Positions 57,833 through 60,993 of a DNA stretch of 64,000 nt are shown one piece after another. Under the pieces are notes generated by a model, which ran no database searches, was not told the DNA's origin, and saw only the letters and a program-made list of their open reading frames with translations. The DNA is from Ardenticatenia bacterium (lineage in GTDB: Bacteria; Chloroflexota; Anaerolineae; Ardenticatenales; Ardenticatenaceae). The translations under genes were made by a program, and so were the position numbers. The stretch lies in NCBI GenBank assembly GCA_030949995.1, contig JAUZRY010000027.1:1-64000 (forward strand), in the 5' to 3' direction. The number at the start of each line of letters is the position of its first letter. Position 1 is the stretch's first letter.

Positions 57833-58003
57833 GGGCGTATCCTTCCTTCACCCTCAGCGCCGACGATGTCGACCCCGTGATCTTCCAGGCAGAGTGTGTT
57901 CTCAACATCTGTACACGATGCCCTATTATTATACTGGCATCACCTCCCTGTTGTCGAACGGCGAACAGGACGCCTAAGCTCCCCGTTGACACAAGGGTAG
58001 CGG

Positions 58004-58032
58004 TTGAGCCAACCGAAAAAATTTGCTATAAT
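58004..58032 (+). promoter_or_regulatory. Promoter of the cNMP-like/PH-domain gene
   Basis: TTGAGC (58004-58009), 17-nt spacer, TATAAT (58027-58032) with extended TGC. About 70 nt before ATG 58103. Confidence 0.65.
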
Positions 58033-58102: not shown

Positions 58103-59814
58103 ATGGCAGACTTGTTTGACCTCCTGCGAGCTCAGCCACTCCTCGCGAAGCTGCCGGGCGCGGAAATCGAACACTTGGCGAACCAAGCCCTCCTGAAGCG
58201 CCTAAATGCCGGGGAGTACCTCTTCCGCGCCGGTGAGCCGGCCGAGATGGTCTACTTCATTGTGTCCGGGCACGTAGAAGTCCATGCCGGCGATGATGGC
58301 AAAGCAGGGGTGAAAGCAGCGGTCCGACTCGGCCCTGGGGATGTGATCGGCAGCGGCGCGGTGTTCTCCGAGAATGGCGTCTATGACTCGTCGGTCCGTG
58401 CTTTGGAGCCCACCGAACTGATTGGCATACCGGCCGAGCATTTCCGCGAGTTGGCCGAGGCGTATTCTGAGGTCAAGAAACAGGCCGAGTACGACGCGAC
58501 TGAACACTTGGAGTTAACCGCTGAGGTTGCCGACCAGGAGTTCTTGCCCGGGGAGATGCCCATCATCGTCACCCGCCCCCACTGGATCACGCTCGTCACC
58601 AATGTGGTCCGGCCAATAGGGCTCATGGGGGTGGTGACCGTGGTGGCAGCCGTGCTCCTCCTGGTTCTGGCGGACAGTGATTGGGCGCTCGTCGTGTGGG
58701 GAGGCTGGGCCATCGTGTTGGGCGGGCTTGCCTTGTGGCTGGTCTGGAATATCGTGGATTATGTGAATGACTTCTACATTGTAACCACTCACCGGGTGAT
58801 TCACATTAATAAAGTCGTGTTTTTGTTAGAGGAGAGGTACGAGGCTCCCATTGAAAAGGTTCAAGATGTTGAGGCCACAATTTCCAACCCTCTCCAGCGG
58901 CTCTTGCGCTACGGCGACTTGGTGATCAACACGGCGGCCCAGGATCAGATCACGTTCAATCATGTGCCCGACCCGGAGCGCGTGCAGTCGGTCATTCTGG
59001 CCCAAAAAGATCGGTTTGAGGCCCGCGTGTACGCGCTGGCCCAAGAGGAGAAGCGCCGCCGTATCCGTGAGGCCTTAGGATTGGAACCGCGTCCCGAACA
59101 GGAGGCCGCCGTGTTTGAGGAGGAGATCAGCTCGGCTCCTCCGCCCCCTCCACCGACGCCGAGGTTGTGGGAGCGAGTGAAACAGTACTGGAACCCGTTC
59201 AACCTCCGCGAGCACCGCCCAAACAACATCATCGTGTGGCGCAAGCATTGGATTCGGTTGGTCATTCGTATCCAGCCGGTGCTCTGGTTCATGCTCTTGA
59301 TCTTTGTCGGCGCTGTCTTGGCCATTTTCTACGTGGAGAGCACGTCTCAGCCCTCCGCCTTTACCTCGATCATCGTGGCGTTGTATGTGGTACTCTTCCT
59401 CATCGGGGGCCTGTGGTTCTGGTGGGAGTACGAAGATTGGCGCAATGACCTCTACATTTTGGAGAACGACAAGGTGATTGACGAGGAGAGACTCCCCTTG
59501 GACTTGCAATCCAACGTGCGCCAGGCGCCTCTCGATTCCATCCAGGATGTGAAGTACAGGATACCTGGCCCCCTGTATGCCTTTCTCAACGTGGGCAACG
59601 TGATTATTGAGACGGCCAGCACCGAAGGACGGTTCACTTTCAATTGGGTAAAAAATCCCAAGAGGTGGTCCAGGAAATCACCAGACGGCTTCAGGCCCTC
59701 GAAGAGAAGCGGATGGCCGAACGTCAGGCGCGCATTGATGAGTCCGTGTTGGAAATCCTGGCCATTTACCACCGCGAGTTCAACACGCAGCCGTTCCGAG
59801 AAGAGGCGTCCTGA
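58103..59814 (+). CDS. cNMP-binding-like domain fused to tandem membrane PH modules (one frame break)
   Basis: About 570 residues after correction. The N-terminal domain (roughly 10-125) has the CRP/CAP_ED fold pattern: LNAGEYLFRAGEPAEMVYFIVSG and LGPGDVIGSGAVF. The Glu and Arg of the usual phosphate-binding cassette are missing, so the ligand may not be a cyclic nucleotide. Two copies of a module follow: two membrane helices, then a bPH_2-like domain (YIVTTHRVIHINKV...EKVQDVEATISN...YGDLVI; second copy LYILENDKVIDEE...DSIQDVKYRI...VGNVII). The frame breaks near an A-run at 59650-59661; one added base gives a helical tail ending EEAS at 59814. Ligand and role unknown. Confidence 0.75.
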
Positions 59815-59890
59815 GGGGGGACGGCCCCGGCAGGTGGTACGTGCTCCTGGAACAGGCGCACGGAGCAAAATCACGGAGAGGAGTGGGAGA

Positions 59891-60142
59891 ATGGCGGTTG
59901 AAATTACCATTAACCGGGCGACGAAGACGATGGTCATCCCGGCCGGCGAGGCGGACCGTGTCAAGGAAATCGCCGGCGGACGCATCCGCAAAGTGGGGGC
60001 TCTTACCGGGGCCGGTGGGACCAACCGGTATGTGGCCGGCGGTGACCTGGAAGAGCTCGCCGAGCTGTTGCGCCAGGCCGGCTATGTGGTGCGGCTCGTG
60101 GGCCAACCCATTGAGAAGGAAGAGGACGAGGATTGGTTGTAG
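59891..60142 (+). CDS. Small conserved-looking protein downstream of the PH-domain gene
   Basis: 83 residues, soluble, mixed alpha/beta: VEITINRATKTMVIPAGE, then a Gly-rich turn (GALTGAGGTNRYVAGG), a helix (LEELAELLRQAGY), a strand (VVRLVG) and an acidic tail. No family recognised. ATG 59891 has a purine-rich GGAG site upstream. It lies 76 nt after the preceding gene in the same direction, so cotranscription is likely; a strong hairpin follows. Confidence 0.6.
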   Translation: MAVEITINRATKTMVIPAGEADRVKEIAGGRIRKVGALTGAGGTNRYVAGGDLEELAELLRQAGYVVRLVGQPIEKEEDEDWL

Positions 60143-60196: not shown

Positions 60197-60694
60197 CTAT
60201 TTCCGCTTCCTCCTGTTCCCCTTGGGCTTATCGGATCCACTGAAAGGGCCGGGCGGGAAACCGATAGTCCACCCCCGCCTTCCTGAGAATTTGGCGCCGT
60301 ATTCGTGGCTGATGGTCTTCACGATTCCCCGCCGCACGGCCTCTTCTGCGAGCTTGTGGAGGGTCCAGCGGTTGTAGGGCAGGCCGAGATCGCGCGGGTG
60401 CGTGCGCGCAAGTTCGATGATCTGGCGCCGCTGTTCCTCGGTGAAGCGCGGTGGTGCCCCCCCGGAGCGCGGGCTGATGAGCCCTTGAATGCCGTGTTTG
60501 TTGAACCGGTGAATCCACTTGCGCAGGTTTGTGGGATGCGCTTGCAGCAGGGCGGCGATCTCCGGCACACGGTACCCGGCGTGGGAGAGCAGGATGACCC
60601 TGGCCCGGTGGCGCAGCGCGCTGTCCTCGTGTTCCAGCCAGCTTCGAAGCACCTTTTCTTCCTGGGACGTGAGTTTGCGGACGTAGAGAGCCAT
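60197..60694 (-). CDS. Truncated IS630-family transposase-like HTH protein (probable frame break)
   Basis: 165 residues as read. It contains the N-terminal HTH region of IS630-type transposases: RHRARVILLSHAGYRVPEIAALL, then LRKWIHRFNKHGIQGL and RFTEEQRRQIIELA. The catalytic DDE domain is absent. Near 60300 one missing base would convert the end into YRRQILRKAGVDYRF and a stop at 60228, closer to the family. No flanking terminal inverted repeats were found, so it may be a remnant or a domesticated DNA-binding protein. Start ATG 60694 follows a perfect AAAGGAGGT. Confidence 0.6.
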   Translation of the reverse strand: MALYVRKLTSQEEKVLRSWLEHEDSALRHRARVILLSHAGYRVPEIAALLQAHPTNLRKWIHRFNKHGIQGLISPRSGGAPPRFTEEQRRQIIELARTHPRDLGLPYNRWTLHKLAEEAVRRGIVKTISHEYGAKFSGRRGWTIGFPPGPFSGSDKPKGNRRKRK

Positions 60695-60701
60695 GTGTGG
60701 T

Positions 60702-60710
60702 ACCTCCTTT
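60702..60710 (-). promoter_or_regulatory. Perfect ribosome-binding site
   Basis: AAAGGAGGT on the minus strand, seven nt before ATG 60694, the strongest ribosome site noted in the window. The upstream gap to 60993 contains no convincing gene; a weak TATAGT (60797-60792) lacks a good -35. Confidence 0.7.
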
Positions 60711-60993
60711 CGCGGTTTCCGGGTTGGCACCTGTCGGGGACTGGCCCGGACATTGTGACGCCCATTTGTCCGAGGAACGCCTTCTGAACACACTATAGTG
60801 GAAGCAAATGTACGCTTGATGAACACTTTCAACGGGATATATGACGCTTTTTTCAGTGTGTGGCTGCACAGTCGATGCAACGGGGCGTTGGCGTTGCCCA
60901 ATGGAGGAAGCTGGCGTAATATCTAGCACACCGGCGAGGCACTGGCCTCGACCGGGCGTTGGCGAAGAACACACCTGACAGGGAACACGCACC

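Follow-up and report, generated by a model that had tools for sequence, protein, structure and literature searches.

What might a protein do that joins a domain of the cNMP-binding fold to two membrane-embedded PH modules, and does the small gene behind it belong to the same system? Both questions are raised by a locus in the window, the whole 64,000-nucleotide stretch analyzed here, which is part of contig C27 of a 3.1-Mb Ardenticatenaceae metagenome-assembled genome (Chloroflexota); a sister species served as the comparison genome. The earlier note had read positions 58103 to 60142 as a possible new membrane sensor encoded together with a small partner gene.

Domain architecture and spread of the fusion

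The features of the locus are as follows.

58004..58032, + strand: extended -10 promoter, TTGAGC-N17-TGCTATAAT, found by scan, kept in the sister species and occurring once in the genome
58103..59814, + strand: gene for a protein with a cNMP-binding-fold domain (cNBD), two units of two transmembrane (TM) helices plus bPH_2, and a helical tail; frame interrupted near 59660 by a one-base deletion
58196..58462, + strand: cNBD, residues 32-120 (PF00027, E 6.7e-20), with the cassette Glu/Arg replaced by Ser/Tyr
58586..58765, + strand: TM helices 1-2, residues about 162-221, by hydropathy
58772..58990, + strand: bPH_2 domain 1, residues 224-296 (PF03703, E 7.7e-12)
59249..59428, + strand: TM helices 3-4, residues about 383-442, by hydropathy
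59444..59656, + strand: bPH_2-like domain 2, residues 448-518, homologous to module 1 (hhalign E 6.6e-42)
59662..59814, + strand: helical tail, conserved and encoded in the frame that follows the deletion; stop at 59812-59814; 74% identity to the sister, dN/dS 0.09
59891..60142, + strand: separate, family-restricted 83-aa gene, adjoining the cNBD-PH gene only in the window species and its sister

The open reading frame starting at 58103, where the earlier note had placed the gene start, stays in a single frame until about 59660. The domain search suggested there was run against Pfam and recovered both the cNBD (71.3 bits against a cut-off of 27.5) and the first bPH_2 domain (45.7 bits against a curated cut-off of 22) in the window protein, and its hydropathy shows four hydrophobic segments arranged as two hairpins. 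Residues 153-300 and 374-518 are homologous to each other at 29% identity by hhalign, which makes the membrane part two copies of one module of the form HW - TM - TM - DWxND - PH; the second PH domain alone scores weakly in the window protein and is the higher-scoring copy in some relatives. Pfam, hydropathy and the internal repeat thus agree with the proposed order of a cNMP-like domain and two TM/PH modules, the helical tail follows in the next frame, and the “corrected protein” of that proposal is accounted for by the one-base deletion relative to the sister. AlphaFold2 modeling of the full-length sister protein from a two-sequence alignment gave a pLDDT of 42, too low for the model to be used, and a scan of the genome’s contigs with the main protein returned no match. 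The genes flanking the cNBD-PH gene encode an SDR-type epimerase, the 83-aa protein and a helix-turn-helix (HTH) protein.

With the window protein as query, homologues at 1e-20 or better were found in 81 of 100 relatives, nearly always as one per genome. A 28-member profile matches the sampled genomes of the same class from the cNBD through the tail, with two exceptions, G022, where the match is divided over two frames, and G266, where it consists of the cNBD alone; PF00027 and PF03703 are both present in 28/28 aligned members. The fusion is nearly universal among the sampled members of the class, and the outcome that was to have overturned the proposal, a PH part never fused to the cNBD, did not occur. 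Some members carry two (L061 and L062) or three (L063, L064, L067, L068 and L072) tandem cNBDs. In other Chloroflexota classes the PH unit is found without the cNBD, the match beginning no earlier than about position 119 of the profile, and on plasmids the matches cover the cNBD only. On a tree of the PH unit the fusion needs three changes; as grouping the fused members in a single clade is not rejected (p-AU 0.31), the data are compatible with one gain and also with a gain followed by losses.

In its membrane part the protein resembles those of the YdbT/YdbS type (PF03703, DUF304; COG3428/COG3402), including DdF/DdE, which likewise combine repeated membrane helices with bPH_2 domains. As in that type, the bPH_2 domain scores above the curated cut-off, in the window protein and in all 28 members, and the module of two TM helices and a PH domain is repeated; the difference lies in the added N-terminal cNBD, or several of them. 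A YdbS-like small bPH_2 gene is absent beside the cNBD-PH gene in the window; such a gene is a usual companion of YdbT and is not essential to the family. No role assigned to a cNBD-PH membrane protein was found in the open-access literature, where the combination of cNBD and bPH_2 domains, which is real and widespread, is apparently undescribed. The word “new” is hence apt for the domain combination and not for the PH unit itself, which belongs to the established YdbT/bPH_2 type.

The cassette and the possible ligand of the cNBD

By profile, the cNBD falls in the same domain family (PF00027) as the regulatory domains of PKA/PKG, CRP and the CNG channels, and its attachment, presumably in the cytosol, to a membrane part recalls the CNG-type channels. 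Unlike in these receptors, the cassette Glu/Arg are lost or altered in most members, and there is no channel, kinase or HTH part; in particular, the C-terminal helix-turn-helix of CRP/FNR is absent, and it is the TM and PH modules that come after the cNBD. We read the cassettes of 37 cNBDs adjoining the PH unit and of 22 upstream tandem cNBDs. Among those adjoining the PH unit, the Glu is present in 20/37, the Arg in 22/37 and both in 15/37, the cassette is complete, with Glu, Arg and the small residues after Arg, in 3/37, and an Asp directly follows the key Arg position in 18/37; a canonical cassette occurs in 0/22 of the upstream tandem domains. At the Glu/Arg positions the window protein has Ser/Tyr, the sister Gly/Tyr, and G004 and G005 Asp/Tyr, so that the loss of both residues is common to that branch; G003, of the same family as the window species, retains the Arg, and some other cNBD proteins of the window genome carry GEMAL...RSATV. 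Despite its altered cassette, the cNBD is under purifying selection (dN/dS 0.26 against the sister). The statement in the earlier note that the cassette residues are not conserved is borne out by these counts. Elsewhere in the window species, a locus on another contig (L003, G000:C86, about 54.1-57.5 kb) encodes four tandem cNMP-binding-like domains, the cassettes of which are irregular too.

A search covering class III cyclases found none in 21 of the 81 genomes bearing the cNBD-PH gene. With only three of the 37 cassettes complete, an Asp in 18 and no class III cyclase in these 21 genomes, the sequences make canonical sensing of cAMP/cGMP unlikely as the shared function, although it is possible in some members; the doubt already raised over cNMP binding is upheld by the same degenerate cassettes and missing class III cyclases. 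That the protein acts as a sensor at all is something that we infer.

Two readings nevertheless give the cNBD a ligand. In the first, the domain would have switched, across the whole class, from 3',5'-cyclic mononucleotides to some other ligand, and the protein would be a membrane receptor gating a YdbT-like PH assembly; the Asp that roughly half of the domains have behind the Arg position and the occurrence of one to three tandem domains point in this direction, though we regard the conversion as doubtful. In the second, the protein would be a canonical membrane receptor of cAMP or cGMP, in which the ligand of the cNBD switches the PH unit as in a cyclic-nucleotide-gated channel. The strong cNMP_binding match, the PKA/PKG-type domains that are its nearest solved structures, the class III cyclases encoded in the window genome and a co-occurrence of gene and cyclase somewhat above chance (p 0.03, uncorrected for relatedness) are consistent with such a receptor, but with both Glu and Arg gone in the window protein and its nearest relatives, complete cassettes so rare in the adjoining domains and lacking from the tandem ones, and class III cyclases wanting in the 21 genomes, we consider it unlikely.

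The frame break, the promoter and the 83-residue gene

The one-base deletion near 59660 lies after the second PH domain, and the 50 residues past it, read in their own frame, are still under purifying selection, as their identity to the sister and their dN/dS of 0.09 indicate. Hence, either the frame was broken very recently or the assembly is in error here, and a second one-base deletion relative to the sister, about 640 bases farther downstream at about 60297 in the HTH gene, favors the latter. The interruption, together with a dN/dS of about 0.31 against the sister that makes this the quickest-evolving among the local genes measured, could suggest a decaying pseudogene in the window genome; given the tail kept in its own frame, the neighboring deletion and a promoter that is still intact, we think this very unlikely. 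The HTH gene itself (60197-60901, - strand) is IS630-like, has no catalytic part and, apart from the one base that it lacks relative to the sister, occupies an identical position there and is 95% identical as far as its break.

The claim that the gene has an extended -10 promoter of its own stands: promoter-type sites in the scanned region number 4, against a mean of 0.6 per shuffled region, and the TTGAGC-N17-TGCTATAAT block is kept in the sister. As the block occurs only once in the genome, no regulon is hinted at. A 13-bp inverted repeat, GGTTG-N3-CAACC (58002-58014), overlaps the -35 element, is likewise kept in the sister species and is possibly an operator.

The 83-aa gene is as strongly conserved as had been supposed, with 28 synonymous and 2 non-synonymous differences from the sister. 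In both species it follows the cNBD-PH gene on the same strand after about 76 bases, and no terminator was found on the + strand between them, so that the two are possibly co-transcribed in the window species. This spacing would suit a two-gene unit in which the membrane protein has the soluble 83-aa product as its partner or regulator. However, the small gene stands directly behind the cNBD-PH gene only in the window species (G000) and the sister (G002). In G001 and G005 it lies behind a small gene whose product resembles a heavy-metal-binding (HMA) protein and in G003 beside an xseA-like gene, both identified by eye; in G004 the two genes are on different contigs, and G001 has the small gene and no match to the cNBD-PH protein. 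The small gene occurs in clear form in Ardenticatenaceae only; faint relatives turn up in 11 further members of the class, and it is missing from most genomes that bear the far more widespread cNBD-PH gene. The rates also differ, with a dN against the sister of 0.011 for the 83-aa gene and 0.33 for its neighbor, about thirty times slower protein change. The limited adjacency and restricted distribution do not support a functional pair, and a two-gene unit seems to us scarcely credible; the synteny across relatives leads us to reject the 83-aa protein as a partner. Of the proposed unit from 58103 to 60142, what remains is two genes side by side, with no conserved link between them. The small gene has its closest named relatives in Ardenticatenaceae metagenome-assembled genomes, among them L050, which carries the same locus; the predicted structure of its product (pLDDT 80) runs beta-beta-alpha-beta-beta-alpha-beta and gave no significant match in the PDB.

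Finally, the cNBD fits PADLOC models of Pycsar effectors (E 3e-10), which, as cNBD-TIR or cNBD-TM proteins, also pair a cNBD of similar sequence with an effector part, but a defense effector triggered by cCMP/cUMP from a phage-responsive cyclase can be as good as discarded: the match is limited to the cNBD, no PycC cyclase lies beside the gene, the class III cyclases of the window genome are all on other contigs and those of many genomes are missing, and the protein, with duplicated PH modules and no TIR, is broadly conserved at about one copy per genome throughout the class, unlike a defense gene.

Neighborhoods and proposed function

In the cNBD-bearing class, the survey of neighborhoods found no conserved neighbor beyond small groups, and direct support for a role in the envelope is therefore absent there. 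The link to the envelope comes from the cNBD-less relatives, because these adjoin genes for PlsC-type acyltransferases or ABC transporters, or follow a CvpA-like gene. In one such group, a cytidylate kinase gene lies upstream, with a PlsC-type acyltransferase in part of the group, and downstream are genes for a 630-aa protein that matches nothing in Pfam and for an ABC ATPase, joined in some members by an ABC-2 permease gene; at L078-L085 the conserved order is the PH relative, the 630-aa protein and, in most, the ABC ATPase. In another group, the CvpA-like gene is upstream of that for the PH protein. At L092 (7686-9314), a cNBD-less PH protein encoded after a CvpA-like gene has a C-terminal PASTA domain, the membrane side of which is puzzling. 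For DUF304-type membrane PHb proteins, Xu et al. predicted that the PH domains lie in the cytosol and suggested that contacts between these domains hold together oligomeric pores or transporters (PMC2817789). Further, export of enterocin DD14 in Enterococcus faecalis requires DdE/DdF, PH proteins whose genes lie upstream of an ABC transporter (PMC8657885), and the ddE/ddF genes of that cluster thus share with the cNBD-less relatives a location near ABC transporter genes.

We propose, giving it roughly even chances, that the cNBD-PH protein is a YdbT-like unit of membrane assembly under the control of a cNBD with a degenerate cassette, with a likely output in an envelope job. It would sit in the cytoplasmic membrane through its two modules of TM hairpin and bPH_2 domain, with the PH domains probably on the cytosolic side, where they may assemble with those of other copies of the protein or with membrane partners. 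The N-terminal cNBD, its canonical cyclic-nucleotide pocket largely lost, would have a regulatory or assembly role in the cytosol, either relaying a protein contact ligand-free or binding a different small molecule. The output would most likely be an altered PH assembly serving the envelope, for example, in export or lipid handling.

Whatever its output, the protein has been retained, with roughly one copy in each genome, in most of the members sampled from a major class of Chloroflexota. Its cNBD-less PH relatives are the natural comparison for what the cNBD contributes, and the family provides a test case for cNBDs no longer tied to cyclic nucleotides.
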